Notes under the pieces: model-generated | What the model was told of the DNA's origin: nothing | What the model saw: only the letters and a program-made list of their open reading frames with translations | Database searches by the model: none | Assembly: GCA_946415315.1 (NCBI GenBank) | Contig: CAMKRZ010000007.1 | Coordinates: 1 to 64,000 of the forward strand | DNA length: 64,000 nucleotides | From: an uncultured Lachnoclostridium sp. | GTDB taxonomy: Bacteria > Bacillota > Clostridia > Lachnospirales > Lachnospiraceae | Reading direction: 5' to 3' | Shown: positions 104 through 57,814 of the stretch, piece by piece | How positions within the stretch are numbered: the first letter of the stretch is position 1 | Layout of the letters: every line of letters begins with the position of its first letter | Made by a program: the position numbers and the translations under genes

Positions 104-1555
104 TCATTTTGAACGGCAAAGCTTGCCCAGATAATAGAACCCTTTGCAGGTAGTAAGCTCAACCTTCACGATCTCACCGAGCAACGATTTTTCAGCCGGA
201 AAATGTACCAGCAGATTGTTGTCGAGCCGACCGGTCATCAACTCTTCCTCAGCTTTGTACTCCTCACAGAGAACATCTTCGGTTGCTCCTGCATAGGCCT
301 CGGCCTGCTTTGCGCTGACCTCGCCGACAGCGGTAAGAAGTCTTTTGAATCGTTCTCCTGCAATGTCGTCAGGCACCTGGTTTTCCATGGTGGCTGCGGG
401 CGTACCGGTGCGTTTGGAGTACAGGAATGTATATGCCGCCATGAAGCCTGCTTTGCGCACGACATCGACCGTTTCCTCAAAATCCTCTTCCGTCTCACCC
501 GGAAAACCGACGATGATATCGGTAGTCACGGCGACGCCTGGGATGCGTTCCTTGATCCGGTCAACAAGCGCAAGATACTGCTCCTTCGTGTAATGTCGGT
601 TCATTGCTTTGAGAATGCGGCTGCTTCCGGATTGCAGAGGAAGATGTACATGTTTGCAGACTTTGTCGTTCGAAGCGATCTCAGCGATCAGCTCGTCCGA
701 AAGATCCTTCGGGTGCGGAGTCATAAAACGGATGCGGCGGATGCCTTCGACCTCGCTCACACGGTGAAGGAGCTGCGCGAAGGATATTCCTTCGGGAGTG
801 TTCTTTCCGTAGGAGTTTACATTCTGTCCGAGCAGCATGACTTCGCGCACACCGTTTTCCGCGAGATGACGAGCTTCCGCTACGATATCCTCCGCCGAGC
901 GCGAGCGCTCTCTGCCTCTCACGTACGGAACGATACAGTAACTGCAGAAGTTGTTGCAGCCGTACATGATATTGATACCGGCCTTGAACCCGTACTTGTT
1001 CCTGCGCGGCAGATCTTCGACGATGCCGGATGCCTGATCCCAGACATCGACGACAAGGCTGCCCTGCACTTCGCGCTCAAACAAAAGTTCGGCAAGTTTG
1101 TAGATGTTGTGTGTTCCGAAGATCACATCGACGAAACGGTAACTCTTACGGATCTTTTCGACAGCCTGAGGCTCCTGCATCATACATCCGCACAGAATGA
1201 TGCGCTTGTCGGGATTTTTCTTCTTACGGTTGCCCAGGTATCCGATGCGACCGTAGACGCGGGAGTTCGCATTTTCCCTGACCGTACAGGTGTTATAGAG
1301 AACCAGATCAGCGTCCTCGCTGTCGGAATCCTCATATCCGATCGCGCTGAGTATTCCCGTGAGTGTCTCGGAATCCTTGGCGTTCATCTGACAACCGAAC
1401 GTGACGACGTTCATGGTAAGGCTGCGACCGGCCTGAGCGGCTTTCTCGGCAAGGATCGAGCGCATCACGTCAATAAAATAGTACTGTCGCTCCGGTTCCT
1501 CCGCAGGCGCCAGCGAGCGAACTCTCGCCGCATAGATTTCCTTTGATTGGTCCAT
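104..1555 (-). CDS. miaB: tRNA-2-methylthio-N6-dimethylallyladenosine synthase MiaB
   Basis: Radical-SAM methylthiotransferase that converts i6A37 to ms2i6A37 in tRNAs reading UNN codons. The protein is 483 residues, slightly long for the family because of an N-terminal extension of about 45 residues. The UPF0004 domain begins at VVTFGCQMNAKDSE, and its auxiliary-cluster cysteines are seen as FGCQMN, YNTCTV and LCGCMMQ. The radical-SAM motif CNNFCSYC follows within GCNNFCSYCIVPYVRGRERS, and a C-terminal TRAM domain ends the protein. The ATG is preceded by GGAGGAACC. A strong terminator separates it from proA upstream, so it probably has its own promoter, although none is clear. mutS often follows miaB in this group but would lie outside the window. 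Confidence 0.96.
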   Translation of the reverse strand: MDQSKEIYAARVRSLAPAEEPERQYYFIDVMRSILAEKAAQAGRSLTMNVVTFGCQMNAKDSETLTGILSAIGYEDSDSEDADLVLYNTCTVRENANSRVYGRIGYLGNRKKKNPDKRIILCGCMMQEPQAVEKIRKSYRFVDVIFGTHNIYKLAELLFEREVQGSLVVDVWDQASGIVEDLPRRNKYGFKAGINIMYGCNNFCSYCIVPYVRGRERSRSAEDIVAEARHLAENGVREVMLLGQNVNSYGKNTPEGISFAQLLHRVSEVEGIRRIRFMTPHPKDLSDELIAEIASNDKVCKHVHLPLQSGSSRILKAMNRHYTKEQYLALVDRIKERIPGVAVTTDIIVGFPGETEEDFEETVDVVRKAGFMAAYTFLYSKRTGTPAATMENQVPDDIAGERFKRLLTAVGEVSAKQAEAYAGATEDVLCEEYKAEEELMTGRLDNNLLVHFPAEKSLLGEIVKVELTTCKGFYYLGKLCRSK

Positions 1556-1600
1556 GGTTCCTCCGCAGTGATCGCAGGTCTGAATCAGCCTGGTAAACAG

Positions 1601-1644
1601 TTCAAAAAAAGCGACCTCGCAGGGAGTTTTGTCGCTTTTTTGAA
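1601..1644 (-). terminator. Rho-independent terminator after proA
   Basis: Arms at 1601-1615 and 1631-1644 pair through GCGAC/GTCGC and an A-run/T-run. On the minus strand the stem is followed by a run of seven T. It ends the proB-proA transcript. The A/T symmetry could let it work in both directions. Confidence 0.85.
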
Positions 1645-1667
1645 TCTTCTATAAAACGTTTGCCGGA

Positions 1668-3795: not shown

Positions 3796-4638
3796 TCAAT
3801 GCTCCTTCGTAAGGTAATCGATCAGATGAAAATTCTCGTTCTTGTGCGCACGGAACAGTGTACCCACATTGCGTCCCTCCAGCACATGCCGCAGATTCTT
3901 CATGTCGCAGCCGTTGCAGATCACCATGTCGGCACCTGCATCGTTGGCGATGCGCGCAGCCGCGATCTTCGTCGCCATGCCGCCGCTTCCGACATCGCTT
4001 CCGGGGCCCTTCGCCATGGACTCCAGATCGTCGGTGATATAGTCGATCTCCTCAATGAACTTCGCGTCGGGATTGACGTGCGGGTCATCGTCATAGAGCC
4101 CGTCAATGTCCGAGAGAAGAACCAAAAGATCCGCGTGGATCAGCGCTGCCACGATCGCGGACAGCGTGTCGTTGTCGCCGAATTCGATCTCGTCGGTCAC
4201 GACCGTGTCGTTCTCATTGACGATCGGGATGACGCCCATCGACAACAATTCGGAAAATGTTGCCCTTGCGTTACGGCGGTTGATATCGTTGATCATCGTG
4301 AGTTTTGTGATCAGCACCTGCGCCGGAATCTTGTTGTACTCCGCGAAAAGTCTTTGATAGACCATCATCAGTCGCGTCTGTCCGATGGCGGCGCACGCCT
4401 GTTTTACTGACTTTTCCTTCGGGCGCTCCGTGATTTTCATCGTCTTGCGTCCGACGGCGATCGCGCCTGAGGACACAAGCACGATATCCTTGCCGCAGTT
4501 GGAAATATCGGTGAGAACGCGCACAAGGCGCTCCATTTTCACAAGGTCCATGTCCCCCGTCTCCGCATGTGTAAGCGTCGAGGAACCGATTTTGACGACA
4601 ATGCGTTTCTTGCCTGCCATCAACTCTTCACGATTCAT
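3796..4638 (-). CDS. proB: Glutamate 5-kinase ProB, short form without PUA domain
   Basis: Phosphorylates L-glutamate to gamma-glutamyl phosphate, the first and normally proline-inhibited step of proline synthesis. The amino-acid-kinase fold begins KRIVVKIGSSTLTH, with LVSSGAIAVG, PIVNENDTV and GTGG-like SDVGSGGMATKIAAA motifs in order. At 280 residues it ends after the kinase domain and lacks the C-terminal PUA domain of the roughly 370-residue E. coli type. That short form is common in Clostridia. The ATG follows GGAGGGAAAGATA. It is the first gene of the operon and has a good promoter upstream. Confidence 0.96.
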   Translation of the reverse strand: MNREELMAGKKRIVVKIGSSTLTHAETGDMDLVKMERLVRVLTDISNCGKDIVLVSSGAIAVGRKTMKITERPKEKSVKQACAAIGQTRLMMVYQRLFAEYNKIPAQVLITKLTMINDINRRNARATFSELLSMGVIPIVNENDTVVTDEIEFGDNDTLSAIVAALIHADLLVLLSDIDGLYDDDPHVNPDAKFIEEIDYITDDLESMAKGPGSDVGSGGMATKIAAARIANDAGADMVICNGCDMKNLRHVLEGRNVGTLFRAHKNENFHLIDYLTKEH

Positions 4639-4837: not shown

Positions 4838-6616
4838 TCATCTGGTCGGAGCATACTCTCCCATGATCGTCTCCGCAACGCGGATGCCGTCGATGGCAGC
4901 CGACATGATCCCGCCGGCATATCCTGCACCTTCCCCGCAAGGATAAAGGCCTGTAAAGCCCTCTGCCTGAAGGTTCTCATTCCGTGTGATCCGAACCGGT
5001 GACGACGTTCTCGATTCGATCGCCTGAAGAAGCGTGTCATCGACACCGTAGCCCGGCATTGCGCGGTCAAACGCCTCCATGCCTTCGGAGATCGCGTTCG
5101 TCATATAGTCCGGAAGACATTCGTGCAAATCGGTGTAGTGAACGGCCCCTTTGTTGACCGGTTCGATCGATCCGCATCCGGTGCTCGCGCGTCCGTTTTT
5201 GAAATCTTCGTACCGTTGTGTCGGGATCGCGCTGTTACCTGCGATATATGCCAACTCCTCGAGCCGTCTTTGATACTCCATACCGACTAGCGGTCCGGGG
5301 ATGGAACTCAGATCCGGCGCGTCGGTAATACCCGGAATCGGGCGAAGTTTCGTCAGAGAAGAACGCTTTCGCAGCGCATTTTCGTAATCGGAAGCACAGT
5401 CCTCCGGAGTCACGGTCACGACGATCGCGGAGTTTGAGTTGTCCGCCATCCGGTCGTAATTGCTCATTCCGTTGATCGCAAGCCGCCCTAACTCACTGGA
5501 AGCATTTACCACATAACCACCCGGGCACATGCAGAACGAGTACACGCCGCGTCCGTTGCTGCATGTGTGAGTCAGTTTGTAATCTGCGCTCGGAAGAAGT
5601 TCCGCCGCGTCGCCGTACTGGGTTTTGTTTACCCACTCACGCTTGTGCTGCACGCGCACGCCCATGGCAAATGCCTTCGGCTCCATCGCAACCCCGCTGT
5701 CATAGAGCCATCTCACGGTGTCACGCGCGGAATGCCCGATCGCAAGCACGGCGATGCCGGCCGGCACGGAAATGTAATGAGTTTCGCCCTCCGTCCGCAC
5801 AACTCGGATCACTCCTTCAAGGGCTGTCGGAACGGAGAAATCGTTCGATCGACTACGGCATTGTACTTCCGTAAGCTGTCCGTTCTTCCACGTAAAGCCT
5901 GTCACGGTTGTTCCGGTAAGGACTGTCCCGCCAAGCTTCTCGATCTCCTTCGTGATACCGGTAACCACGGATCGCAGTCGATCGGTACCAATGTGAGGTT
6001 TGTTTCGGTACAGGATCTCCTCCGGCGCCCCGAAACGCACGAACGTGCGGAGAACGTATGCGCCCCGCCCGTCTTTATCCTTGATCAGCGTGTTGAGTTT
6101 TCCGTCGGAAAATGTCCCTGCTCCTCCGATTCCGAACTGCACATTCGACTCCGGATCCAGCACGCCTGTTGAGAAGAATCGCTCGACATCGGCAACCCGT
6201 TTCTCAACGGATTTGCCTCGTTCGATCAGGATCGGACGATATCCAGCCTCTGCCATTAGAAGAGCGGCAAACAATCCGGCAGGTCCGGCTCCGATGACGA
6301 CCGGTCGTTGCGTAAGCGGTCTGATTCCGCCGGATTTCGGTTGAAACACGACGGGAGTATAGTAAGACCAGTCCTTTCCTTCCCGCCCCTTCAGTCTGAA
6401 CCCGGAAGAAACGACAACAGCAACATCATATACGTACGCAAGGTCCCGCTTCTTTCGCGCATCAAGCGACTGCTTTACGATCTTGAGGGAAAGTATGGCG
6501 TCACGCGGAATGCCCAGTTTACCGGCTGCGCATTGGATCAGGTCTTCCTCGCTGTGTGAGATCGGCATGTGCAGTTGTTGAAGCCGGATGGTAACCGGCT
6601 TGCGTTCCGATTTCAT
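4838..6616 (-). CDS. FAD-dependent dehydrogenase of the COG2509 type
   Basis: A 592-residue flavoprotein of unknown substrate. An N-terminal domain of about 100 residues (KSERKPVTIRLQQLHMPIS onward) precedes the Rossmann motif VVIGAGPAGLFAALLMAEAG, then FGIGGAGTFSDGKLNT, which is typical of this family of uncharacterised FAD-dependent dehydrogenases. A C-terminal FAD-binding motif reads LYPCGEGAGYAGGIMSAAID. The start at 6614-6616 is chosen for its GGAGGTTACC ribosome site; an upstream in-frame start would overlap the preceding gene. It follows a second FAD oxidoreductase by 17 bp, so both probably act in one pathway, but nothing here names the substrate. Confidence 0.85.
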   Translation of the reverse strand: MKSERKPVTIRLQQLHMPISHSEEDLIQCAAGKLGIPRDAILSLKIVKQSLDARKKRDLAYVYDVAVVVSSGFRLKGREGKDWSYYTPVVFQPKSGGIRPLTQRPVVIGAGPAGLFAALLMAEAGYRPILIERGKSVEKRVADVERFFSTGVLDPESNVQFGIGGAGTFSDGKLNTLIKDKDGRGAYVLRTFVRFGAPEEILYRNKPHIGTDRLRSVVTGITKEIEKLGGTVLTGTTVTGFTWKNGQLTEVQCRSRSNDFSVPTALEGVIRVVRTEGETHYISVPAGIAVLAIGHSARDTVRWLYDSGVAMEPKAFAMGVRVQHKREWVNKTQYGDAAELLPSADYKLTHTCSNGRGVYSFCMCPGGYVVNASSELGRLAINGMSNYDRMADNSNSAIVVTVTPEDCASDYENALRKRSSLTKLRPIPGITDAPDLSSIPGPLVGMEYQRRLEELAYIAGNSAIPTQRYEDFKNGRASTGCGSIEPVNKGAVHYTDLHECLPDYMTNAISEGMEAFDRAMPGYGVDDTLLQAIESRTSSPVRITRNENLQAEGFTGLYPCGEGAGYAGGIMSAAIDGIRVAETIMGEYAPTR

Positions 6617-10104: not shown

Positions 10105-11123
10105 GTGTTATCTCCGTGCTTCTCTCTGTTATGCCAGTATCTTCTCTTGTTCCCGCTGTCAGGCTTTCTCGCAGCCTTCTCCTCGTATGACTCGTATGCC
10201 ATGACGATCTTCTGCACCAGAGGATGTCTCACGACGTCGGCTCCCGTCAATGCGGAAAATGCGATCCCCTCGATCCCGCCGAGTACTTTCATCGCAACAT
10301 CCAGACCGGAGACCTGGTCGACCGGAAGGTCCTTCTGCGTGCGATCACCGGTGACGACAACCTTGGAACCGAATCCGATGCGGGTGAGGAACATTTTCAT
10401 CTGAGCCGGAGTTGTGTTCTGCGCCTCATCGAGAATAATGAACGCATTGTCGAGCGTGCGTCCTCGCATGTATGCAAGTGGAGCGACCTCGATCAGGCCT
10501 TTCTCCATATTTTTCGTGAACGACTCCGCGCCCATGATCTGGTAGAGCGCGTCGTAAAGCGGTCGCAGATACGGATCTACCTTGCTCTGCAGATCTCCGG
10601 GAAGAAAGCCGAGCTTCTCTCCCGCCTCGATCGCCGGTCGCGTCAGGATGATCCGGTTGACCTCGTCATTCTTGAACGCGGTGACAGCCATTGCCATGGC
10701 AAGGTACGTCTTGCCGGTGCCGGCAGGACCGATTCCGAACACGATCATGTTGTCGCGGATGTTGTCAACGTAGTTTTTCTGTCCGAGCGTCTTCGGCTTG
10801 ATCGGCTTACCGGTGATCGTGTGGCAAATCAGCTCGGAGTCGACGCTGAGCATGCTGCCCTCCTCGTTGTCTTTAGCAAGTGACAGCGTGTAATTGACAT
10901 TCTGAATATTCACGTCCGAACCGCGCGCAGCAAGTTCTAAAAGCGTGGTTAGGACGCGCTTTGCCTTGTCGCAAGGCCCTTCCTCGCCGACGATTCGGAT
11001 TTCTTCTTCACGCGTCACGATGGTAACGCGCAGCGTCTTCTCAATCTGTTTGGCAAATTCGTCCATCTCGCCGAAGATGACTTTTTGTCTTGAGACCGGA
11101 ATTCCGGTCAGTGTCTGTACCAT
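10101..11123 (-). CDS. phoH: PhoH-like ATPase
   Basis: A 340-residue P-loop ATPase of the PhoH family. The Walker A motif is [16 protein letters not shown] and Walker B is [12 protein letters not shown]. The N-terminal region carries a KH-like RNA-binding segment around [13 protein letters not shown]. PhoH proteins travel with YbeY and are thought to act in RNA metabolism with it, which fits the four-base overlap here. The ATG has GGAGGTTTAC before it. A strong extended -10 element lies 31-36 bp upstream. Confidence 0.94.
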
Positions 11124-11593: not shown

Positions 11594-14263
11594 TCAGTTG
11601 ATCTGCGCAGCAGCAACTTCCTTTGCCTTCTCGATGCAAGCATTAACGCCCGCGGGGTTCTTGCCGCCTGCCTGTGCCATGTTCGGACGTCCGCCGCCGC
11701 CACCTCCGACAAGGGAAGCAATCTCCTTGATCAGGTTACCTGCGTGTGCGCCCTTGGCAATTGCGCTGTCTGTTGCAGCAGAAACAAGATTCACCTTGTC
11801 GTCGTTAACCGAAGCAAGCACGATCACGCTGCTGTCGCCGAGCTTCTCCTTGATCCTGTCACAGAAACTTCGAAGACCGCCCATATCAAGGTTCGGAACA
11901 GATGCCGTAAGAATCTTCACGCCCTTTACAAGCCAGAAATTGCTGAGGATATCATCCAGGGAAGCATCGGCCATCTTCGCCTTCAGTTTCTCATTTTCCG
12001 CATAAGCGGCTTTAATCTCCGCGTTCAGTGCTTCAATCTTGGCTGCGAGATTCGCAGGATCGCATTTTGCTACGCGGGCCGCGGAGAAGAGTTCTTCTTC
12101 CAGCGTCTTGTAATGAGCGATGACGTTGCCTGCCGTGATCGCCTCGATTCTTCTCGTTCCTGCGGCGATACCGGATTCGCTCACAATCTTGAAGGATGCG
12201 ATGGAACCGGTGTTTGCAACATGCGTACCGCCGCACAGCTCAATGCTGTAGCCGCCCATGTCGACAACGCGAACGCTCTCACCGTATTTTTCGCCGAACA
12301 GAGCCATCGCGCCGGTCTTTCTCGCCTCGTCGATCGACATGATCTTTGTAACAACAGGGTAATCCGCCTCAATCGCCGCATTGACAAGTCGTTCGACCTC
12401 GTAAATCTCCTCTTTCGTCATCGCGTTGAAATGCGAGAAGTCAAAGCGGAGTCTTTCGGAATTCACGAACGAACCAGCCTGCTCAACATGGTTTCCGAGA
12501 ACCGTGCGGAGCGCCTTCTGAAGAAGGTGTGTCGCCGAATGGTTCTTCGCCGTTGCAAGTCTCTTCACACGGTCGTACGCGATGGTCACGGTGTCGCCGG
12601 TCGTAAACGAACCACCGACTACGGTACCGATGTGAGCAATCTTGCCGCCCTTTAATTTGATCGTATCCACAACGTCAAACTCTGCGGTCGTCTCGCCCTC
12701 TTCCTCAATGTATATGCGTCCGCAGTCACCCTGCTGGCCGCCCATTGTAGCATAGCAAACGGTCTTGTCGGCAATGATCGCGCCGCTCTCACCTTCAGTG
12801 AGCGACGTAACGATCGATCCGTTACCGTTCTCTTCCTTCGTCATTACAAGGATCTTGCCTTCGTTTGTATCCTTGTCGTAGCCGACGAACTCGGACGTGA
12901 TGGAAGGATCGATCTCATCGTACACGGTAGCGTCAGCGCCCATGTAGTTTGTCTTCTTGCGGGAGTTGCGCGCAAGCGTGCGCTGCGCTTCCATGGCCTT
13001 CTTATAGCCCTCGGTATCGATCGTCATACCGCGCTCAGCGAGGATCTCCTCGGTAAGATCAAGCGGGAAGCCGTATGTGTCGTACAGCTTGAATGCATCG
13101 TCTCCGGCCAGAACGGTCTTACCCTCTGCAACAAGAGCTTCCTCCATGCCGGCGAGGATTTCCAGACCCTGGTCGATCGTCTTGTTGAACTTCTCTTCCT
13201 CGTTGTTGAGTACGGAGAAAATGTAAGCCTTCTTCTCCTCAAGCTCCGGATAACCGTCCTTCGCGTCGCGGATGACAGTCTCGCAGAGGTTCGCAAGGAA
13301 CTGTCCCTTGATCCCGAGAAGACGACCGTGTCTTGCGGCACGGCGAAGAAGTCTTCTGAGCACGTAGCCGCGTCCCTCGTTCGAAGGAAGGATACCGTCG
13401 CTCGTCATGAACGTTACGGAACGGATATGATCCGTGATCAATCGGATGGACACGTCCTTCTTCGGATCTGTCTCATACTCGACTCCGGCGAGCTCGCACA
13501 CCCGATCGCGAAGTGCCTTCATCGTATCGATGTCAAATACGGTATCGACATCCTGACATACTACTGCGAGACGCTCGAGTCCCATACCGGTGTCGATATT
13601 CTTGTTCGTGAGTTCCTCATAACCGCCCTTGCCGTCGCCGTTGAACTGCGTGAACACGTTGTTCCAGACTTCCATGTAGCGATCACAGTCGCAGCCTACG
13701 GTACAGCCGGGCTTGCCGCAGCCGTACTTCTCTCCGCGGTCATAGTAGATTTCCGAGCAGGGACCGCACGGACCTGCGCCGTGCTCCCAGAAGTTGTCAG
13801 CCTTTCCGAAACGGAAAATGCGATCCTTCGCGACGCCGACTTCCTTGTTCCAGATGTCAAACGCCTCGTCGTCATCCTGGTAAACCGAAGGGTACAGACG
13901 GTTCTCGTCAAGACCGAGCACTTTCGTCAGGAACTCCCAGCTCCATGCGATCGCTTCGTGTTTAAAGTAATCGCCGAACGAGAAATTGCCGAGCATCTCA
14001 AAGAAAGTAAGATGTCTTGCGGTCTTTCCGACATTTTCGATATCACCGGTGCGCACACACTTCTGACACGTTGTCACACGACGTCTCGGAGGGATCTCCT
14101 GACCCGTAAAATAAGGCTTGAGCGGCGCCATGCCTGCGTTGATCAGCAGAAGACTCTTGTCGTTTTGCGGGACAAGCGAGAAGCTGTTCATCTTAAGATG
14201 ATCCTTGCTCTCAAAGAACTCCAGATACATTTTCCGAAGCTCGTTCACACCGTATTTCTTCAT
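11594..14263 (-). CDS. alaS: Alanine--tRNA ligase
   Basis: Charges tRNA-Ala. At 889 residues it has the full bacterial architecture: an N-terminal class II catalytic core (FFESKDHLKMNSFSLVP, NAGMAPLKPYFTG), the tRNA-recognition middle, an editing domain with zinc-type motif HSATHLL plus the later CGGTHV, and a C-terminal C-Ala domain rich in glycine (GGGGGGRPNMAQAGG). The start at 14261-14263 is chosen for GGAGGTTACCACG before it; an earlier in-frame codon lacks an RBS. No T-box leader fits in the 33 bp between it and the xylanase gene upstream. Confidence 0.98.
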   Translation of the reverse strand: MKKYGVNELRKMYLEFFESKDHLKMNSFSLVPQNDKSLLLINAGMAPLKPYFTGQEIPPRRRVTTCQKCVRTGDIENVGKTARHLTFFEMLGNFSFGDYFKHEAIAWSWEFLTKVLGLDENRLYPSVYQDDDEAFDIWNKEVGVAKDRIFRFGKADNFWEHGAGPCGPCSEIYYDRGEKYGCGKPGCTVGCDCDRYMEVWNNVFTQFNGDGKGGYEELTNKNIDTGMGLERLAVVCQDVDTVFDIDTMKALRDRVCELAGVEYETDPKKDVSIRLITDHIRSVTFMTSDGILPSNEGRGYVLRRLLRRAARHGRLLGIKGQFLANLCETVIRDAKDGYPELEEKKAYIFSVLNNEEEKFNKTIDQGLEILAGMEEALVAEGKTVLAGDDAFKLYDTYGFPLDLTEEILAERGMTIDTEGYKKAMEAQRTLARNSRKKTNYMGADATVYDEIDPSITSEFVGYDKDTNEGKILVMTKEENGNGSIVTSLTEGESGAIIADKTVCYATMGGQQGDCGRIYIEEEGETTAEFDVVDTIKLKGGKIAHIGTVVGGSFTTGDTVTIAYDRVKRLATAKNHSATHLLQKALRTVLGNHVEQAGSFVNSERLRFDFSHFNAMTKEEIYEVERLVNAAIEADYPVVTKIMSIDEARKTGAMALFGEKYGESVRVVDMGGYSIELCGGTHVANTGSIASFKIVSESGIAAGTRRIEAITAGNVIAHYKTLEEELFSAARVAKCDPANLAAKIEALNAEIKAAYAENEKLKAKMADASLDDILSNFWLVKGVKILTASVPNLDMGGLRSFCDRIKEKLGDSSVIVLASVNDDKVNLVSAATDSAIAKGAHAGNLIKEIASLVGGGGGGRPNMAQAGGKNPAGVNACIEKAKEVAAAQIN

Positions 14264-30794: not shown

Positions 30795-30851
30795 GTATCA
30801 TTTTCCTCTGAGGACGAATTTCAATGCAGGTGTGAGAAGTGTTCATTGTAA

Positions 30852-32698: not shown

Positions 32699-33625
32699 TT
32701 ACATACCCATCTGCTTAGCAACTTCCTCAGCGAAGTTCTCTTCACGCTTCTCAAGGCCCTCACCGGTCTCGAAACGAACGAACTTCACGATATCAAGATC
32801 CTTGGATACGCTTGCAACATATGCAGCAACCTTCTTCTCCTGATCCTTGACATAGATCTGATCAACAAGGCAGATCTCCTTGAGCTCTTTGTCAAGACGG
32901 CCGGGAACGATACGCTCGATTACGATGTTCTCAGGCTTTGGCTTAGCGCTCTCAGCATTTTCCTTGAGCGCTTCCTTCGTGATGATCTCGGTCTCGCTTG
33001 CGATAAAGTCAGCGGAGATTTCCTCCTTGCGAACGTATGCCGGCTTCATAGCGCAAACCTGCATTGCAATGTTCTTCGCGCACTCGATCGTAGCGTCGTT
33101 CGCCTCGCCCTTCATCTGAACAAGGATACCGAGCTTGCCGCCGTTGTGGATGTAGCTTACTACAAAGCCGTCAGCCGCATTGATCTTCTCGAAACGACGG
33201 ATGGAAAGCTTCTCACCGATTACGGCAACAAGGTTTGCCTGTGCTTCCTTCACGCTGATGGAAGGATCCTCGCACCAGGGCTCAGCAAGGAAGCAATCGA
33301 TGCAAGCAGCATCCGTGGAAGCAGCCTGCTTGGCAACCTTTGCAACAAACTCCTGGAACTTCTCATTCTTCGCAACAAAGTCGGTCTCGGAGTTCACCTC
33401 AACAACCGCTGCGGTCTTGTAATCATCGGTAACAAACGCTGCGCAGATACCTTCTGCAGCGATTCTGCTCTCCTTCTTTGCAGCCTTGGCAAGTCCGTTC
33501 TCACGAAGCCATACAACTGCCTTCTCCATATCGCCGTCCGTCTCGGTCAGCGCCTTCTTGCAATCCATCATGCCGGCGCCGGTCGACTCACGGAGTTCCT
33601 TTACCATGCTCGCAGTAATGTTAGC
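32699..33625 (-). CDS. tsf: Elongation factor Ts
   Basis: Nucleotide exchange factor for EF-Tu, 308 residues. The N-terminal UBA-like domain ITASMVKELRESTGAGMMDC is diagnostic, and VVEVNSETDFVAKNEKF is the EF-Tu contact segment. The start at 33623-33625 (ATG, TAGGAG ahead) gives the conserved MANITASMVK; the frame is open 14 codons further but without an RBS. It follows rpsB with a perfect hairpin in the gap. Confidence 0.98.
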   Translation of the reverse strand, partial: ANITASMVKELRESTGAGMMDCKKALTETDGDMEKAVVWLRENGLAKAAKKESRIAAEGICAAFVTDDYKTAAVVEVNSETDFVAKNEKFQEFVAKVAKQAASTDAACIDCFLAEPWCEDPSISVKEAQANLVAVIGEKLSIRRFEKINAADGFVVSYIHNGGKLGILVQMKGEANDATIECAKNIAMQVCAMKPAYVRKEEISADFIASETEIITKEALKENAESAKPKPENIVIERIVPGRLDKELKEICLVDQIYVKDQEKKVAAYVASVSKDLDIVKFVRFETGEGLEKREENFAEEVAKQMGM

Positions 33626-42697: not shown

Positions 42698-42781
42698 ACC
42701 TTCCTCCTAAACTGTGCGCCGGAACTGCGATGGCTGAATCATACGTCATTTTCCGGGGAAAATCCATTCGCAGGATACATG

Positions 42782-43378: not shown

Positions 43379-44020
43379 TTACTTGATATCTCCCGCGATA
43401 TCGATGTTGACACCGGTAAGACCGATCACGGCACCCTGCTTTGCTTCCGATGCTTCCGGATGCGCGATCAGCCACTTATTGGAAGCGAACAGTCTTGCAT
43501 CATCCGCGTTCTTCACGGTGATCTGCGGCTTGTCGTAGTTCGTTCCCTTCGGAAGCACGATCACAACGCGGAACTGATCCCCGAGCTTTGCGCTGCAAGG
43601 AGCATAATGAAGCGTAGTTGCATACAGTTCAACGCCGGTTCCCGCCGGACAGAAGAACGCCTCCACCTTTGAGGTGTCAAGCATTTTCCCCATGCAATCC
43701 TGCTGCTTTGCAAGCAGTAAAATGCAGTCGGTTGCCGCGATATCGATCTCGCTGTCACGATGGTACTCAAGGCAGTTGAGCTTCGTGTTCGTTCCGTTGC
43801 AGTATCCGATCTGGATCGGCATGCCGCCGTAGCAGTTGAGCGTGAAATCAGCCATTGCAGGAGTTGCCTCAAGCCCTGCATCCGAAGGAACATACACAAC
43901 CGAATCAACCGGTGCGGGTGTCGTCTCCGTGAGAACCTTAAGAAGATCGTCCGTGTCATACCCCGTTACAACTCTTCCGTATGCCTCAAATGCGGCATCG
44001 TTTACGTTTTGAATTTTCAT
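43379..44020 (-). CDS. DUF4867 family cupin-like protein
   Basis: A 213-residue soluble protein (IQNVNDAAFEAYGRVVTGYD onward). The middle segment FTLNCYGGMPIQIGYCNGTN, LNCLEYHRDSEI and the later VEAFFCPAGTGVELYATTLH look like the double-stranded beta-helix of ureidoglycolate-lyase/KduI-type cupins, with YHRDSE and LHYAPC as possible metal-ligand histidine clusters. It is encoded between kdgK and nrdR and next to uxaC, so a role in hexuronate or ketodeoxygluconate metabolism (epimerase or isomerase) is a reasonable inference. No function is established for the family. Confidence 0.75.
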   Translation of the reverse strand: MKIQNVNDAAFEAYGRVVTGYDTDDLLKVLTETTPAPVDSVVYVPSDAGLEATPAMADFTLNCYGGMPIQIGYCNGTNTKLNCLEYHRDSEIDIAATDCILLLAKQQDCMGKMLDTSKVEAFFCPAGTGVELYATTLHYAPCSAKLGDQFRVVIVLPKGTNYDKPQITVKNADDARLFASNKWLIAHPEASEAKQGAVIGLTGVNIDIAGDIK

Positions 44021-45267: not shown

Positions 45268-45313
45268 ATTGTGTTTTCAGCTTCATTTTCCGCGAAAAGA
45301 GAGCCCAAATGCC

Positions 45314-45373: not shown

Positions 45374-46786
45374 ATGGTCTTTATGGATGATAATTTTCTC
45401 TTGAACAATGAGACGGCGCGCGTTTTGTATCATCAGTACGCGTCTGAGATGCCGATCATCGATTACCATTGCCACATCCCTGCCGAGGAGATCGCAAAGG
45501 ATGTCCGATTTGATTCCATCACGGATCTCTGGCTCGGCGCAGACCATTACAAATGGCGCGCCATGCGTTTGAACGGTGTTGATGAAGCACTGATCACCGG
45601 TCAGGCTGATCCGTTTGACCGTTTTGCTGCTTTTGCTGGCACTCTTGAACGCGCGATCGGAAACCCTCTCTACCACTGGAGCCATCTGGAACTGCAGCGG
45701 TATTTCGGGATCAAAGAACCGCTCACAAAGGAAAATGCACGCAGCATATACGATGAGTGCAACCGGATCTTACAGGATAACGGCATGTCAGCCCGCGGTC
45801 TCATACGTCGTTCCAACGTACGGCTTCTCTGTACGACCGACGACCCTGCTGATGACCTTCGCTGGCATCGTCTTCTTGCGATGGACGTCACCTTCCCCGT
45901 GAAGGTTTTACCGGCATTCCGTCCCGATCGTGTCCTCTCCATCGAGAAGAAGGATTTCGCCTCCTACATCCGCGGCGAGCTCGGACGCGCGGCAAATCGA
46001 ACCATCACATTGTACACGGAACTGAAGGACGTTCTGCGCGAGCGGATCGCGTTCTTTGATGAAAATGGTTGCCGCACTGCAGATCAAAGCCTTCCTTATG
46101 TCATGTATGCGCCTTGCACCGAGGAGCGGGCGGAAGTCATTTTCCGAAAAGCGTTGAACAGCGAGCCGGTTGACCTGTACGAACAGTTACAGTTCAAGAC
46201 CGCTCTGCTCTCGTTCCTCGCTGCTGAATACGCCAAGAGAGGCTGGGTTATGCAGCTGCATTACGGCGTGAAGCGCGATAACAACACCAAACTGTTTCTT
46301 CAGTCCGGAGCCAACAACGGCTGTGACTGTATTGACGATTACACTCCGTCCTCAGAACTTGCAGATTTTTTGAATTCACTCTGCAAGGTGGATGCATTGC
46401 CGAAGACGATCCTGTATTCGCTGAATCCGATCGACAATGCGGCAATCGGAACCGTGATCGGTTGCTTTGCGGACAGTTCCTGCGCAGGCAAAGTGCAGCA
46501 GGGCTCTGCATGGTGGTTCAATGACAACAAGAAAGGCATGGAGGAGCAACTTACATCACTTGCAAACCTCGGTGTGCTTGGCAATTTTGTCGGAATGCTC
46601 ACCGATTCGCGCAGTTTTCTCTCCTACACACGCCACGAATATTTCCGCCGTATTCTCTGCAACCTGATCGGCACCTGGGTTACGAACGGCGAGTATCCCT
46701 GTGATCTCACGGCCCTCGGCGGTCTCGTGAGTGACATTTCATTTCACAATTGCAATCGTTACTTTGATTTCGGCCTTACGGTGTAA
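45374..46786 (+). CDS. uxaC: Uronate (glucuronate) isomerase
   Basis: Converts D-glucuronate to D-fructuronate and D-galacturonate to D-tagaturonate, the entry step of hexuronate use. The 470-residue protein has the amidohydrolase-like opening MPIIDYHCHIPAEEIAKD, the hallmark WLGADHYKWRAMRLNGV, and later GWVMQLHYGVKRDNNTK and the NDNKKGMEEQL segment. The ATG follows AAGGAGG at eight bases. It is divergent from kdgK. A terminator overlaps its last codons and stop. Confidence 0.96.
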   Translation: MVFMDDNFLLNNETARVLYHQYASEMPIIDYHCHIPAEEIAKDVRFDSITDLWLGADHYKWRAMRLNGVDEALITGQADPFDRFAAFAGTLERAIGNPLYHWSHLELQRYFGIKEPLTKENARSIYDECNRILQDNGMSARGLIRRSNVRLLCTTDDPADDLRWHRLLAMDVTFPVKVLPAFRPDRVLSIEKKDFASYIRGELGRAANRTITLYTELKDVLRERIAFFDENGCRTADQSLPYVMYAPCTEERAEVIFRKALNSEPVDLYEQLQFKTALLSFLAAEYAKRGWVMQLHYGVKRDNNTKLFLQSGANNGCDCIDDYTPSSELADFLNSLCKVDALPKTILYSLNPIDNAAIGTVIGCFADSSCAGKVQQGSAWWFNDNKKGMEEQLTSLANLGVLGNFVGMLTDSRSFLSYTRHEYFRRILCNLIGTWVTNGEYPCDLTALGGLVSDISFHNCNRYFDFGLTV

Positions 46787-48331: not shown

Positions 48332-48370
48332 TCATTTTCCAATGTAAAAACGATATCAGATCAATGAATA

Positions 48371-49310: not shown

Positions 49311-50300
49311 TTACGCCTCGGTATCAGCGCTCACATCATTCTTCTTTGCAGCCTCGACAACGCCGCTTGCAAGGCCGGCAAGGCCCTGAATCTCGGAAGG
49401 AATGATGATCTTCGTGGATTTGCCGTCAGCAGCCTTCGCAAACGCTTCCAGGCTCTTCAGACGAAGAACGGGATCCGTCGGTGACGCCTCGTTCAGATAG
49501 CGAATACCGTCCGCATTAGCCTTCTGAACGCGCATGATCGCTTCCGCCTGACCTTCTGCTTCGCGGATGGTTGCTTCCTTTTTCGCTTCTGCGCGAAGGA
49601 TTGCTGCAGCCTTCTCTGCTTCCGCTTCGAGAATCGCGGATGCTTTCTTACCTTCTGCTACGAGGATCGTGGACTTCTTCTCACCTTCTGCAATGAGGAT
49701 CGACTCACGGCGCTCACGCTCAGCTTTCATCTGCTTCTCCATCGCATCGCGGATCGCAGCCGGCGGCATAATGTTCTTCAGCTCAACACGGTTGACCTTG
49801 ATACCCCAGGGATCGGTAGCCTCGTCGAGGGAGACACGCATTTTCCCGTTGATGATCTCACGCGAAGTGAGCGTCTCGTCGAGTTCGAGATCACCGATGA
49901 TGTTACGAAGCGTTGTTGCGGTCAGATTCTCGATTGCCATCAGCGGATTCTGTACACCGTACGCATATAACTTCGGATCCGTGATCTGGAAATACACGAC
50001 CGTATCAATCTGCATGGTAACGTTATCTTTCGTAATAACGGGCTGCGGAGGAAAATCCACAACCTGCTCCTTCAGAAGAACATCGAGAGCAACACGGTCG
50101 ATAAACGGCCATTTGATGTGAATACCGACACCCCATGTCTCCTCATAACCGCCGAAGCGTTCCAGGATATACGCATGTGCCTGCGGTACGACCCGAAGGC
50201 ATGTTACAAACAAAGCTACGAGCACGATCAGAACAAGCGCAACCCAAAATCCGGTGCTGTTGGCAATACTGCTTCCGTCAGATTCCAAAAAACTTAACAT
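49311..50300 (-). CDS. SPFH/Band 7 membrane scaffold (stomatin/QmcA-like)
   Basis: A 329-residue protein with one N-terminal helix (WVALVLIVLVALFVTCL), a Band 7 domain (VPQAHAYILERFGGYEETWG, VVDFPPQPVITKDNVTMQID, NRVELKNIMPPAAIRDAMEKQ) and a long coiled-coil rich in Glu/Ala/Lys (EAEKAAAILRAEAKKEATI). Such proteins form rings or lipid-domain scaffolds and pair with NfeD. The gene follows nfeD with two bases between. Confidence 0.93.
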   Translation of the reverse strand: MLSFLESDGSSIANSTGFWVALVLIVLVALFVTCLRVVPQAHAYILERFGGYEETWGVGIHIKWPFIDRVALDVLLKEQVVDFPPQPVITKDNVTMQIDTVVYFQITDPKLYAYGVQNPLMAIENLTATTLRNIIGDLELDETLTSREIINGKMRVSLDEATDPWGIKVNRVELKNIMPPAAIRDAMEKQMKAERERRESILIAEGEKKSTILVAEGKKASAILEAEAEKAAAILRAEAKKEATIREAEGQAEAIMRVQKANADGIRYLNEASPTDPVLRLKSLEAFAKAADGKSTKIIIPSEIQGLAGLASGVVEAAKKNDVSADTEA

Positions 50301-52712: not shown

Positions 52713-55565
52713 TCAGTCTTCGCCAAGCTTGAGCGCCTGGTTGATCTTGATCTTCGAAAGCAGTACGGAAATCACCGTGATGCACAGGGACAGCATGACT
52801 GCCACCACGACACCGATCTGGATCAGATCGCCGGGCTGCATGATCGTCTTCGACGGAAGCGTCTGCAACTTCGGAGAATATGCGATCTGGATCAGCGGAA
52901 TAAACAGTTTTGAAGCCAGCACACCGACACCCGCGCCGAACAGGATCGGAAGAACGGAACCGAAGAAATGCTCGTTGACCAGCATACGGATCAGTTCGTT
53001 CATTGACATACCCATAGCACGATAAATACCGAAGATCAGCTCTCTTGCCCGGATGGACGTGATCCAGAAGATCAGGAATCCGATCGCGCACAGAACGAGC
53101 ACAACGATGAACGTGATCGTCAACATACCGTTCGTCACCTGGAAATACGGATCGTTCTTCAGCTCAACCATATCCTGGGTGCGGTCCGTAAAGGTCTTGT
53201 ACGAGATCTTATTTTCCGTCGACCAGTCGTAGAAGAAATCGGTATTCCCGTTCGTCTTGATCCAGATCTCATACGGCAGGACCGGATAGTCGAGCAAAAT
53301 GTTATCGTAGTTGCAGACAGCCAGATAATGAGGGATTGTCTCGATCTCACCGTTCTTGGCTTTCTGCTCGCCCCATTTTTCGTAACCCGGCCAGTAGTCA
53401 ATAATGGCAACGACCGTCAGGCTCTTGCGCCCCAGGGACTTTTTCATGTCGTCAAACCGTTCGATGACCATCGTGTCACCGACATTCAGCGTGCTGTATT
53501 CCGCAAGATTTCTGGAGATGATCACACCTTCCGGATTTCCGGCAAGCGCGTTCAGATCCTCATACCAGTGATGCTCCGAAACGCCCTGCGGCATCCATGC
53601 GGCGTGTCCGAACTCGTACGTATTGACAGCCATCAGCTCGAGGTTTTCGATCGGTTCGCTTCCGATGACTACATGCGCATTCCAGTCGTGGATCACGCGT
53701 GTCATCGTCACGACATCATCTTTATACTGCTCTGCCATACGTTCAAAGCGTGTATAGTCCGCTTCTTTGTACTGCAGTTTGGATGCATATCCGAGTTTGA
53801 TATTGTTGGCATTGCTCTGCCAGTTTTCCTTCACGACAATATCCGCACCGTCCGTATAACCGATCCGCTCTTCTTCGTTCTGGTTCACCGTTCTCGCGAT
53901 ATTGGCATTGAAAATACCGAGTGCGATCGTCAGCACGAGGAAAACCGTAATGAAGCTTTGCTTGTGCGCATCTCTCGTGATCTGCAGGAACGATGCATAT
54001 GAGGCCGGTTTCCAGAACTTTCTTCCGATACGGAAAATGAGCCTTGACAGAAGCGGGATCACTCGCAGGAACACGATCGCGCAGCTCAGGATGAACAGTG
54101 ACGCCGAGAAGAACAGCATCGGATTGACTGCCTCGCCCTTTGCGATGGACTGCATCAGTTTCTCTTTCTGGTTGTTGAAATCATAATATCCGTACAGCGC
54201 AAGACCAAGCAGCGCAAAATCCAGGAACATACGCTGCCACAAAGGCTGCGTCTTCTTTCTCTTTCTGGCCTTCTGCTCAACGATACTGAATCTGGCATAC
54301 TTCAGTACCGGAAGAGTCATGATCAGAATGCCGCTTGCACAGCTTACCAGCGCATATTTGATCGCCTCGGAGGTGATCCGCACATTCATGGACCTGCGTC
54401 CCACAAATTCCAGGAATGCGTTCGTAGATCCGAATACGTGACACAGCAGGTATCCGAACGGAATACCGACTATGATTGCTATGGCACCGAGTATCGTGGA
54501 TTGCAGAAGATACATCAATAACAGCTGAAGCCGGCTTACGCCACGGCTCTTCATCATCGCAATCTCGCCCTGTTCAATGTCGATCACCTGGTTGGAAACC
54601 ATGAAGATAAACACAGCAAGAAGGACAAGAACAGGAACCTGCAGGATCCAAATGGTGGATTTAACTTTGGATGAATCCTTGAGGAACTGTTCAAAGATTT
54701 CATTATAATTACAATACGGCGTGTACAGGCAATTAGGGTTATCGTAATCTTCCTTCAGGTCACGATACACGGAAAGCATCTTCTCAACCTGCTCCGTCTC
54801 AATATCCTCATAGTTATAGAGAATATGATAGTTCGCACGGATACTGCCGGAAACGCGTTCTCCGTCGAGAAAACTTGATACGAACAGGTTCTGAGGGATA
54901 AAGAATTCCTGCTGATACGACAGTGGATCGTTTACCCAGTAGATGTCCTCCTGCTCACTCGCGCGGAACACGCCTACGACACGGATCCGGATATCCGCTC
55001 CGTCCAGTGTTTTATAGCTGTAAATTTCGATCACGTCGTCGAGAATGATATTGGAAGTAAGGTACACTTTCTCATTGATCACGCACTCGATAATACCGTC
55101 TTCTTCAGGCGTATCGGAATACATGCGTCCTGCAACGATATCAACATGGTCCTCGAGATTCGAAAGAGACGCGAGCTTGAGTTTAAGACCGGAATTGCCG
55201 GAGCGGCTCACTTCGAATTTCGCATTCTGCACAAAGGCCATGGAAAGGAAAGTAACCTTTTCGTCCGCCTTCTGTCCGAACATTTCCTCTGTCTTATCCG
55301 CAACGGTAAGATAATCGTCAAAATAATTGGAATGATTTTTCTCGAGAGTCGTGTTGCTCAACGTGGTATCCAGAGTCAGCATGCCGGGATAACTGTTGTT
55401 CTTCTCAAGGTATGCGTTCATTCTCTTGGTCAGCATTTTCTGCAGTGCCGCATGTGAATACATCGGGCTGCAGCACGCGATGCCCACAAGAAGAATGTTA
55501 CCGATCAGGATACTGAGGATCAGCCACTTTTTGTTTAATAATTTTTGGAAAATAAAGCGAAACAT
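52713..55565 (-). CDS. FtsX/MacB-type ABC transporter permease
   Basis: A 950-residue membrane protein: one N-terminal helix (LILSILIGNILLVGIACCSP-like region), a long extracellular domain (about 35-300), a first FtsX domain with several helices (VPVLVLLAVFIFMVSNQVID to about 510), a second extracellular part, and a C-terminal FtsX domain ending IKINQALKLGED. Cytoplasmic loops MKSRGVSRLQLL and YRAMGMSMNELI contact the ATPases. As a full-length double-FtsX subunit it can work alone as the channel. Substrate unknown; mechanotransmission or peptide/lipoprotein export are the usual roles. Confidence 0.9.
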   Translation of the reverse strand: MFRFIFQKLLNKKWLILSILIGNILLVGIACCSPMYSHAALQKMLTKRMNAYLEKNNSYPGMLTLDTTLSNTTLEKNHSNYFDDYLTVADKTEEMFGQKADEKVTFLSMAFVQNAKFEVSRSGNSGLKLKLASLSNLEDHVDIVAGRMYSDTPEEDGIIECVINEKVYLTSNIILDDVIEIYSYKTLDGADIRIRVVGVFRASEQEDIYWVNDPLSYQQEFFIPQNLFVSSFLDGERVSGSIRANYHILYNYEDIETEQVEKMLSVYRDLKEDYDNPNCLYTPYCNYNEIFEQFLKDSSKVKSTIWILQVPVLVLLAVFIFMVSNQVIDIEQGEIAMMKSRGVSRLQLLLMYLLQSTILGAIAIIVGIPFGYLLCHVFGSTNAFLEFVGRRSMNVRITSEAIKYALVSCASGILIMTLPVLKYARFSIVEQKARKRKKTQPLWQRMFLDFALLGLALYGYYDFNNQKEKLMQSIAKGEAVNPMLFFSASLFILSCAIVFLRVIPLLSRLIFRIGRKFWKPASYASFLQITRDAHKQSFITVFLVLTIALGIFNANIARTVNQNEEERIGYTDGADIVVKENWQSNANNIKLGYASKLQYKEADYTRFERMAEQYKDDVVTMTRVIHDWNAHVVIGSEPIENLELMAVNTYEFGHAAWMPQGVSEHHWYEDLNALAGNPEGVIISRNLAEYSTLNVGDTMVIERFDDMKKSLGRKSLTVVAIIDYWPGYEKWGEQKAKNGEIETIPHYLAVCNYDNILLDYPVLPYEIWIKTNGNTDFFYDWSTENKISYKTFTDRTQDMVELKNDPYFQVTNGMLTITFIVVLVLCAIGFLIFWITSIRARELIFGIYRAMGMSMNELIRMLVNEHFFGSVLPILFGAGVGVLASKLFIPLIQIAYSPKLQTLPSKTIMQPGDLIQIGVVVAVMLSLCITVISVLLSKIKINQALKLGED

Positions 55566-55573
55566 GGATCCTC

Positions 55574-57814
55574 CTAATGAACCAGAATGGTATCGTCTTC
55601 CCTGAGTCCGTCAACAACCCAGCAGGTCTCGTCAACGTTGCGCATCACGCAGATGTATCGCTTCACAACACATCCCTGTGCATCGTACACCCAGACATAC
55701 GGCTTGCCTTTGTTGATCTCATAGGCTTCGCTGTCAAATTTAAACGATTCCGCATCCTTGTACTCTTCCTGCTGAGGCTGTCCCCAACCGCCCCAGTCGC
55801 CGAAATTGCCGCCCTGCCAGCCGCCTTGCTGCTGATTACCGGTCTGTCTGGTCTCGGTTTCTTTCTTTTCGTCGTGATAGACAAGCTTCTTGTCAATAAT
55901 AAGGCTGTCGATCACGCCGTACTCATCATAGTAGAGGATACCGGTCGCTCCGGCTTCCGCATACTGGTCGGGATTGTCCAGCACAACATACACAACGGCT
56001 TTATCAGATGCGTCCGCCGGGCGAACATTCGGCGCGGAAATGACATGCGCGTCGAAGTTGTGTTCCTGTCCGTCCACCATCGAGTTAACCGTAACCTTCT
56101 GACCATACCTGAGACGATATCCCTGCTTGATCGAAGTGAGCTGGAAACTGTATGAATCCAGATCATACGTGTTGAACAGGATTTCACCTTCGTTCAGCGC
56201 CGTGCCGACGCGGTAACGGGAAACGTCGCTCAGAACGCAGTCCTTCTTCGCTCTGATCACGACTTCCTGTCCGTCCCATTCCGTAAAATTCTGAATGCGT
56301 TCGTTAAGTTTTGTGATCTCTTCGTTCGCTTCATCATCGAGATTCTGAAGTTTTTCCTTGAGATCGGAGAGGTCCATTTCTGCGATCGCATACTCAAGCG
56401 AGGAAGATTTCATTTTCTTCATCTTCTTCTCGAGTTCCTCGATCTGATCGAGGAACAGTTCTCTCTGTTCCTCATAGGTGTCCGTATATTTCCGTAGATC
56501 AACCTTCGCCTGTTCGAGATCCGCGCGTCCGACATTCGCCTTAACGGTAAAAATCGGATCGCCTTCCTTCACGACGATATTGATAATACCTTTGATATGG
56601 ATTTCCGTAATTTCACCGGGAACAATATTCTCGAACGGCTCTACTTCGCGCGCAACCTTCTGTGCGCCGGAGCAACCGATATGTTCCGTATAAACAACTC
56701 GTTCCGGCTTCAGTGTCTCATACTTAGCTCCGAAACGTGCGAGATCTTTCGCGATATATACAACATCCCCCTCGGAAAGTCCGGAAACGATCTCGGTGTC
56801 ATTCAGACCGGAATCTCCGACCGTCACTTCGCGGGACTCCATGAAACCGTCCCGAACCAACATGACCGTGTCAAGTTTTCCGTTCTTGACAATTGCAGCT
56901 GTCGGAACCGTGTATACGGGCTCCTTTGATTTCTTGCTGAAAACAAACTGAACATAATCGCCGATCGCTACCGAATCGTCCAGGTCAGCCGTAAAATACG
57001 TATCGTATTCATTGCCTGTTCTCTCAAGCTTATACAGTTCTTCGTCCGTGTAAGGGATGTATTTTACGTCATAGGACTTCTCCCCGATGTACGCTTTTAC
57101 ATCCGTGAACTCATCATAATCCGCGCGGGAAATAAAGCTGCACGCGAGTTGCTTCGTATCGTCTTTTGCAATCGAAAGGAACGTTGCATCCTTGCGGATC
57201 GGGTCTCCGTCTTCATAGACGCTCTGGTACACAACGACACCGTCGCAGGGGCTGTACAGTTTGGACTCCTGAAGTTCCTGCTTCTTCTTCTCGAGTTCCT
57301 CTACATCCTTCTCGATCAGTTTCGCCTGCTCGGCATGACTCCGGTCAAAATTCAACTGCATTTCCTGAATCTGCAGTTTGATCATCTTGGACTCGTACGA
57401 ACTTCCGAGCTGTTTCGCAGTATTTTTCAGTTCTTTGATCCGCTTATTAAACTGTTCGATATCATAATCGTACTCGGTTTTTTCTCTCTCAAGGGCAATT
57501 TCCATTCTCTTGATGGTATCCTCAAGTTCCGGATTAAACTCCATCAGGAGTTGACCCTTCGTAACATGATCGCCCAAAACAACGGCTACCTGATATGCGC
57601 TCGTGTCATAGGAAAATGACAGATTGACACATTCCGGAACGACATAGCCACCGGTGCACTGCACGGAAGTCAGATATTGTTTGGAAACTATGCAGACTGC
57701 GTTTGCCGTCTCAATCGGGTGCAGAAGCTCCGGTGTCTCCGGCTCCGGTTTTCCGCATCCGGAGAGCGACAGCAACAAAACAGCCGTAAGAAGTATTGCT
57801 AGAATTCTTTTCAT
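55574..57814 (-). CDS. Adaptor lipoprotein with duplicated HlyD/MacA-like module
   Basis: A 746-residue lipoprotein: signal peptide to LLLSLSGC (Cys20 counting from the chosen ATG), then a first barrel/lipoyl segment (YDTSAYQVAVVLGDHVTKGQ), a coiled-coil hairpin (about 105-190), the return lipoyl strand KLYSPCDGVVVYQSVYEDGD, a beta-barrel, and then the whole arrangement again with a second coiled coil (about 440-520) and a second barrel. A GQW-rich insert (QQQGGWQGGNFGDWGGWGQP) lies near 680. The start is the ATG at 57812-57814; an upstream TTG is less well placed. Such adaptors link MacB-type permeases to their cargo. A tandem double adaptor is unusual. Confidence 0.85.
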   Translation of the reverse strand: MKRILAILLTAVLLLSLSGCGKPEPETPELLHPIETANAVCIVSKQYLTSVQCTGGYVVPECVNLSFSYDTSAYQVAVVLGDHVTKGQLLMEFNPELEDTIKRMEIALEREKTEYDYDIEQFNKRIKELKNTAKQLGSSYESKMIKLQIQEMQLNFDRSHAEQAKLIEKDVEELEKKKQELQESKLYSPCDGVVVYQSVYEDGDPIRKDATFLSIAKDDTKQLACSFISRADYDEFTDVKAYIGEKSYDVKYIPYTDEELYKLERTGNEYDTYFTADLDDSVAIGDYVQFVFSKKSKEPVYTVPTAAIVKNGKLDTVMLVRDGFMESREVTVGDSGLNDTEIVSGLSEGDVVYIAKDLARFGAKYETLKPERVVYTEHIGCSGAQKVAREVEPFENIVPGEITEIHIKGIINIVVKEGDPIFTVKANVGRADLEQAKVDLRKYTDTYEEQRELFLDQIEELEKKMKKMKSSSLEYAIAEMDLSDLKEKLQNLDDEANEEITKLNERIQNFTEWDGQEVVIRAKKDCVLSDVSRYRVGTALNEGEILFNTYDLDSYSFQLTSIKQGYRLRYGQKVTVNSMVDGQEHNFDAHVISAPNVRPADASDKAVVYVVLDNPDQYAEAGATGILYYDEYGVIDSLIIDKKLVYHDEKKETETRQTGNQQQGGWQGGNFGDWGGWGQPQQEEYKDAESFKFDSEAYEINKGKPYVWVYDAQGCVVKRYICVMRNVDETCWVVDGLREDDTILVH

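Follow-up and report, generated by a model that had tools for sequence, protein, structure and literature searches.

The window analysed here, 64,000 nucleotides (positions 1 to 64,000) of contig CAMKRZ010000007.1 in the genome of an uncultured Lachnoclostridium sp. (Lachnospiraceae; GenBank assembly GCA_946415315.1), carries 31 copies of the octamer GGAAAATG, whose distribution, dialects and possible role as a DNA-uptake-type self-recognition sequence are the subject of this report. Thirteen copies lie on the + strand (198-205, 2016-2023, 4252-4259, 6107-6114, 10254-10261, 13813-13820, 27171-27178, 27363-27370, 29559-29566, 40538-40545, 45730-45737, 54032-54039 and 57611-57618) and 18 on the - strand (1270-1277, 11992-11999, 14228-14235, 16170-16177, 18087-18094, 18698-18705, 20479-20486, 22913-22920, 24663-24670, 25453-25460, 30799-30806, 32956-32963, 42747-42754, 43682-43689, 45284-45291, 46138-46145, 48333-48340 and 49839-49846), so that the series spans positions 198 to 57618. 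The copy at 30799 sits just upstream of an open reading frame (ORF) at 29853-30794. Three copies are halves of short palindromes to which the first-pass annotation of this DNA had drawn attention and which are present as described: those at 6107 and 27171 form the right halves of TTTTCC-N3-GGAAAA and TTTTCC-N2-GGAAAA, respectively, and that at 42747 the left half of TTTTCC-N2-GGAAAA.

The copy at 40538 falls within dprA (39997-41193, - strand), which encodes the DNA-processing protein of transformation and is given here as context only; its TIGR00732 match scores 227.5 bits against a cut-off of 191.15. The ORF named comM in the same annotation matches TIGR00368, the YifB Mg-chelatase-like family, also over the cut-off. 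A second word, the palindrome GCGATCGC, occurs at 13 sites in the window against about 2.6 expected under a Markov-2 model (26 against 5.2 when both strands are counted); we take it to be the HIP1 word of cyanobacteria. HIP1 is an octamer present at high density in some cyanobacterial genomes and resembles GGAAAATG in this respect, the difference being that HIP1 is palindromic and GGAAAATG is not.

Enrichment, anatomy and arrangement of the octamer

The number of copies in the window lies well above chance, as had been claimed at the outset: 100 dinucleotide shuffles of the window gave 3.15 copies on average and never more than 8, and GGAAAATG tops the z ranking of all window octamers (31 observed, 3.5 expected at Markov order 2). 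The window understates the phenomenon. Over the whole genome (2,933,571 bases in 42 contigs) there are 1,763 copies, 890 on the + and 873 on the - strand, compared with 35 of the reversed word (18 and 17), which amounts to about one site per 1.7 kb, a density comparable to that of the uptake signal sequence (USS) of Haemophilus, found about once per 1-2 kb. In a 464 kb sample made up of the window and 20 further stretches of the same genome, GGAAAATG is again the most over-represented octamer by z, with 278 copies observed and 38.8 expected at Markov order 3. Models of order 4 and 5, the check that the first-pass annotation had proposed, do not predict the count either (85.3 and 153.4 expected, respectively), and these two expectations are themselves inflated because the 5- and 6-mers on which they are built are sub-words of GGAAAATG. 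In the same sample, the pair ACTGCCACTG/CAGTGGCAGT occurs 18 times against 0.5 expected and apparently belongs to a longer interspersed repeat.

The fuller form of the word is C-GGAAAATG-H. Of the 278 sampled copies, 56% have C immediately 5' of the core, and pyrimidines are weakly favoured at positions -3 to -6. The exclusion of a 3' G, noticed early on, applies to the window, where none of the 31 copies is so followed, but G follows 8% of the sampled copies and H is therefore a preference and no strict rule. The flanks are near background and hold little information beyond about 6 bp, from which it follows that GGAAAATG is not embedded in a longer repeat; no AT-rich tracts were seen in the flank profile of the 464 kb sample within 25 bp on either side. 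In the window, variants at the first position number 9 (A), 8 (C) and 8 (T), in agreement with the earlier count of about 8 to 9 each. Words with one mismatch exceed expectation when the change falls at positions 1, 2, 3 or 8 (GAAAAATG 134 against 44 expected, GGAAAATA 93 against 32) and are near or below it at positions 4 to 7; such a pattern would be the trace expected of a protein that makes a rigid contact with AAAT and tolerates variation at the edges.

The relation of the octamer to genes was assessed in 536.6 kb of the window genome holding 308 sites, with ORFs called simply as the longest frames. Of these sites, 254 lie within one predicted ORF, 130 in sense and 124 in antisense orientation (134 and 126 in a second run); no overall sense bias is seen. 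When codons were shuffled among synonyms, 46.7 sites within ORFs were expected (41.4 in a second run) against 260 observed, an excess of 5.6-6.3x. That all codon contexts are used, as previously stated, holds in the stronger sense that all six exceed the shuffled expectation, unevenly (observed/shuffled: 15/6.2, 61/3.6, 48/7.7, 15/6.4, 38/8.6 and 77/14.2). The density between ORFs reaches 9.8 per 10 kb, compared with 5.2 inside them; by type of intergenic region it is 14.3 in convergent, 11.1 in co-directional and 5.3 in divergent ones, values that derive from 40 sites only.

Close neighbours are arranged in a characteristic manner. Twelve of the 13 neighbouring pairs whose starts are no more than 60 bp apart are inverted, their starts lying 10 to 58 bp apart, and when partners with at most one mismatch and at most 40 bp between are admitted, an inverted partner is found for 56 of the 308 sites and a direct one for 12, compared with 9-10% for either arrangement at random places. 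The core itself differs from its own complement, and most copies lack an inverted partner. In known uptake sequences, close copies on opposite strands are in excess and often form terminator hairpins, according to the accessible parts of three papers (PMC1852404, PMC13020248, PMC12616744); inverted GGAAAATG pairs may, besides, act as transcription terminators.

Dialects and turnover among relatives

The octamer is enriched in most of the genus. In 20 of 22 genus genomes GGAAAATG is 6.3 to 126 times as frequent as the reversed word, the background, taken from 15 further genera of the family, being 1.9-4.4x; the remaining two, G006 (221/82) and G017 (257/57), are near the background level. By the longest alanyl-tRNA synthetase segments of the 21 genomes with a match, the genus divides into a near clade, 86-98% identical to the window genome, and a far clade at 62-72%. 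Across the species the word is spelled in different ways, examples being CGGAAAATG, CGGCAAATG, AAAATGTGA and GGCAAATAC. In samples of 25 to 504 kb per genome (observed/Markov-2), G005 has the extra word GTAAAATG (21/1.5); G010 and G007 prefer C on the 3' side, and G007 carries GGCAAATG (31/4.6) alongside GGAAAATG (29/6.5); G001 has GGAAAATGT (23/2.1) and AAAATGTGA (23/1.3); G016 has GGCAAATAC (17/0.9), CAAATACGA (20/1.1) and GGCAAATG (31/3.3); and G008 has GGAAAATG (42/4.9) and CAAATACGA (12/0.8). Whole-genome counts of GGCAAATG are 622 in G007, 614 in G012, where it exceeds GGAAAATG (491), and about 200 in five species of the near clade (G005, G009, G013, G014 and G020); in G006 and G017 the word is lower than its control. 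The word GCAAATACGA is found 100 times in G016, 90 in G008, 68 in G018, 50 in G001 and 35 in G021, the other 17 genomes having 12 to 28. No related word stands atop the k-mer lists of G006 and G017 (106 kb each) or of G004 (140 kb); despite this, G004 has GGAAAATG at 23/6.0 in its sample and 438 copies of GGCAAATG against 95 of the reversed form genome-wide. That a genome-wide DNA-level signal with dialects is real is near certain. Two observations on the motif-less genomes may be added: G006 and G017 have kept ComEC, PilT and a minor pilin, which makes them natural comparison strains for the loss of the signal, and G006 holds an interspersed repeat (L152-L156) with CAATGGATGG (13 against 0.2 expected), GAGGCAATGG and CCCGCTGAGG.

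Related words are also found elsewhere in the family. A survey of GGMAAATR and GGNCAATG as the only dialects sought, in 299 genomes of the family (a single genome per genus, with one exception), gave low ratios to the reversed word in most of them. Eight outlier genera were checked on sequence and five hold against a Markov-2 model (observed/expected): G134 with GGAAAATG (22/3.3), G278 with GGCAAATG (18/2.5), G118 with GGTCAATG (38/2.4), GGGCAATG (33/1.8) and GGCCAATG (30/2.3), G199 with GGGCAATG (23/0.4), and G184 with GGAAAATG (42/6.7) and GGTAAATG (28/4.5). The common plan across genera is GG-N-N-AAT-G/A; the main words share GG--AAT, and AAAT is rigid in the window genome. In G230, GGNCAATG is 10x as frequent as its reversed form, yet its 48 copies in 200 kb compare with 27 expected at Markov-2. 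The reversed word is therefore a biased yardstick in some genomes, and no conclusion was drawn from the family-wide ratios by themselves. Repeats were encountered in two of these samples: G230:C1:1-20000 (L248) is dense in them, CAGCAAGCG for instance recurring 57 times in 20 kb, and is likely a gene for a repetitive surface protein, and the G184 sample (L234-L236, L266-L268) contains a repeat around TCGGCTACCAAAATA.

Individual sites are both retained and renewed, as shown by alignment of contig C7 (116.6 kb) of the window genome with relatives, pairs that share ancestry and are not independent. Over five relatives, GGAAAATG is intact at 67 of 159 aligned sites (42%), compared with 215 of 1,298 flanking octamers (17%) and 303 of 1,368 for octamers that are permutations of its letters (18-24% in the single relatives). 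The octamer and its flanks are intact, respectively, at 15/46 and 69/375 sites in G005, 19/41 and 41/329 in G010, 16/35 and 54/287 in G014, 6/18 and 26/156 in G019, and 11/19 and 25/151 in G009. Conversely, the five relatives have 141 sites in the aligned DNA, of which 67 are shared and 74 lie where the window genome is without the word. Retention above the surroundings combined with quick turnover would be the balance expected of drive, or of weak selection on interchangeable sites.

Possible uptake role and its rivals

Besides dprA in the window, the genome carries further genes that DNA uptake might use. ComEC is encoded by an uninterrupted frame of 745 amino acids on contig C3, and contig C5 carries a type IV pilus operon with PilT (TIGR01420, over the cut-off), a PilB-like ATPase (best match TIGR02538, below the cut-off), a PilC/GspF-like protein, two pilin-like genes, a prepilin peptidase, PilM and further prepilins, one of them basic (isoelectric point 9.2); the prepilins are candidates for the receptor. 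The match of this basic minor pilin (L150:18755-19264) to Pfam is limited to the N-terminal methylation motif (E 1e-3). The machinery permits DNA uptake and does not single it out. An attempt to find the receptor through the presence or absence of PilT or of the basic minor pilin was abandoned, as neither correlates with the motif.

There is about an even chance that this genus of Lachnospiraceae has a self-recognition sequence of the DNA-uptake type of which GGAAAATG is the local dialect, a reading suggested by strand balance, dialects, inverted close pairs, retention with turnover and the excess over synonymous shuffles. The wider proposition, that the Lachnospiraceae carry a family of uptake-type sequences on the plan GG-N-N-AAT-G/A with dialects separating species and genera, is put forward a little more tentatively. 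The dispersed uptake-like signal proposed in the first-pass annotation has thus gained in substance as a signal, being balanced genome-wide, widespread in the genus, divided into dialects and arranged in inverted pairs, and its role in uptake is still an inference. By comparison with the DNA uptake sequence (DUS) of Neisseriaceae, as described in the accessible parts of three papers (PMC3630211, PMC12616744, PMC1852404), GGAAAATG shares hundreds to thousands of copies, dialects that follow phylogeny, a common inner core and inverted close pairs; however, it is unrelated in sequence (GG--AAT here, CTG in DUS), shorter, and hosted by Bacillota rather than Proteobacteria, and while DUS has the receptor ComP, GGAAAATG is known here from sequence alone. 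With the USS of Pasteurellaceae it has in common a core of the 9-bp class, inverted pairs and dialects (PMC12616744, accessible part), but the core GCGG is absent from GGAAAATG and the flank profile has no downstream AT-rich segments.

Several results weigh against an uptake role. ComEC is present in 58 of 61 genomes, motif-bearing or motif-less, and does not discriminate between them. PilT exceeds its cut-off in all 13 genus genomes tested, the motif-less two among them, and in 9 of 14 genera picked for low motif ratios, and is below it in the motif-bearing G199 (87% complete) and G278, whose best PilT-family matches are weak and of a length that suggests Tad/CpaF; the basic minor pilin is likewise found in the two genus members that lack the motif, G006 and G017. 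Should the family-wide reading hold, the receptor may be independent of PilT-type pili. In G007, whose dialect differs, the octamer survives scarcely more often than its flanks (4/25 against 27/201). Unshared DNA is weakly depleted, 500-bp bins holding 8 motifs in 38 unshared and 51 in 182 shared bins (4.2 against 5.6 per 10 kb); one tyrosine integrase was found in the window genome. Spacing is slightly more even than random, marginally so (coefficient of variation 0.914 against 1.004, P 0.043). Three of the eight genera followed up were unconfirmed: G230 (200 kb), G339 (30 kb) and G253 (about 9 kb, partly masked). The strand balance, good over the whole sequence, is imperfect with respect to replication: with strands assigned by GC skew, the window genome has 166 leading and 130 lagging sites (56% leading; P 0.04), 12 other motif-bearing genomes, each by its own main word, have 334 and 403 (45%; P 0.012), and G184 is a strong and unexplained exception with 51 leading and 19 lagging sites for GG[AT]AAATG (73%). 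The accessible part of PMC2346458 reports, for known uptake sequences, that copies of one orientation outnumber the other in some setting; GGAAAATG in the window genome has no overall sense bias. Among the literature matches listed for these bacteria there is no report of natural transformation.

The first rival to be weighed is an intracellular one, in which GGAAAATG would be bound by a regulator or a chromosome organiser (nucleoid-associated, Noc-like or SMC-loader-like) with a specificity that drifts from one species to the next. Such a protein would suit the tolerant, protein-like motif, its species dialects, the near balance of strands and the presence of sites both within and between genes, but one site per 1.7 kb and the lack of a fixed-spacing dimer, the inverted starts being 10 to 58 bp apart, speak against it, and we regard it as unlikely while giving it some weight. 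The Noc-like variant raised in the first-pass annotation is weakened because the core is non-palindromic and the spacing of inverted pairs is variable; other DNA-binding proteins remain candidates. A purely mutational or repair bias without function (motif-directed gene conversion, a polymerase or repair hot spot) would account for the high turnover and is compatible with the fact that no function is proven; however, dialects of related species, the preference for inverted pairs and the higher inter-ORF density require extra assumptions, and no mutational process is known to us that would raise one particular 9-mer to 6x its synonymous expectation, which leaves this explanation improbable. Species-specific spelling would also befit a self-mark for a defence or restriction-modification system (a methylation target or a nuclease brake), and non-palindromic words of such length are known methylation targets; as restriction targets are normally avoided and not enriched, this is distinctly improbable.

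A Chi-type recombination signal (AddAB/RecBCD), or a polar segregation signal of the kind of FtsK-orienting polar sequences (KOPS) or SpoIIIE recognition sequences (SRS), would, like GGAAAATG, be an abundant over-represented octamer, here one starting with G; Chi varies between lineages, and the leading-strand excess in G184 would fit. Chi of Escherichia coli K-12, run through the same script over 330 kb as a yardstick, is far more polar and less enriched: its 77 copies lie 59 on the leading and 18 on the lagging strand (77%) and 62 in sense and 15 in antisense orientation, at 1.8x over Markov-3 and 2.4x over the synonymous shuffle, whereas GGAAAATG stands at 7.0x over Markov-3 with 56% leading sites and 134 sense to 126 antisense. 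Near balance between replication strands in the window genome and in the 12 others, as in G134 (12 leading, 10 lagging), taken together with this yardstick, makes a Chi- or KOPS-type reading unlikely, as the first-pass annotation had argued from orientation. Both orientations occur in stretches of either GC-skew sign, so that, judged by GC skew, KOPS/SRS-like polarity is not found, and inverted close pairs are left without a reason under Chi; the probability of this class of signal is small indeed. An apparent polar signal, from seemingly +-only sites past 61 kb of contig 1, was rejected since the sequence there carries both strands. Finally, the count might stem from codon or dipeptide usage or from an interspersed element, given that part of the excess is taken up by Markov models of high order (153 of 278 expected at order 5). 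The excess over synonymous shuffles in six contexts and on both gene strands, and flank information that ends about 6 bp out, led us to reject this source, to which we attach an almost negligible probability.

A possible isolation system among gut anaerobes

The uptake-type reading, to which we give about even odds, stands ahead of each rival considered. Under it, a surface DNA receptor, for which a pilin of type IV, Tad or Com type would be the obvious class, would bind the word on either strand of free DNA; the tagged DNA would enter via ComEC and be recombined by DprA and RecA. The word would accumulate by molecular drive because word-bearing fragments would be preferentially taken up, and changes in the receptor would create dialects and thereby isolate species from each other's DNA. 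The only users of such tags named in the accessible part of a 2025 paper (PMC12616744) are Neisseriaceae and Pasteurellaceae. Of the literature matches listed, which lie mostly outside subscription journals, none describes GGAAAATG itself or an uptake sequence from Bacillota. In Veillonella, genomic DNA is described as transforming about 2-log better than a PCR product, in a source whose accessible part mentions no motif.

If the wider, family-level reading is true, sequence-specific DNA uptake would have originated independently a third time, and for the first time outside Proteobacteria, by convergence in bacteria that have no outer membrane. The many dialects would be available to find the receptor by co-variation. 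Natural transformation would be implied in hosts that are hard to manipulate, and tagging DNA might help to transform them. The Lachnospiraceae would then possess a system of sexual isolation among gut anaerobes in which transformation has hardly been described.

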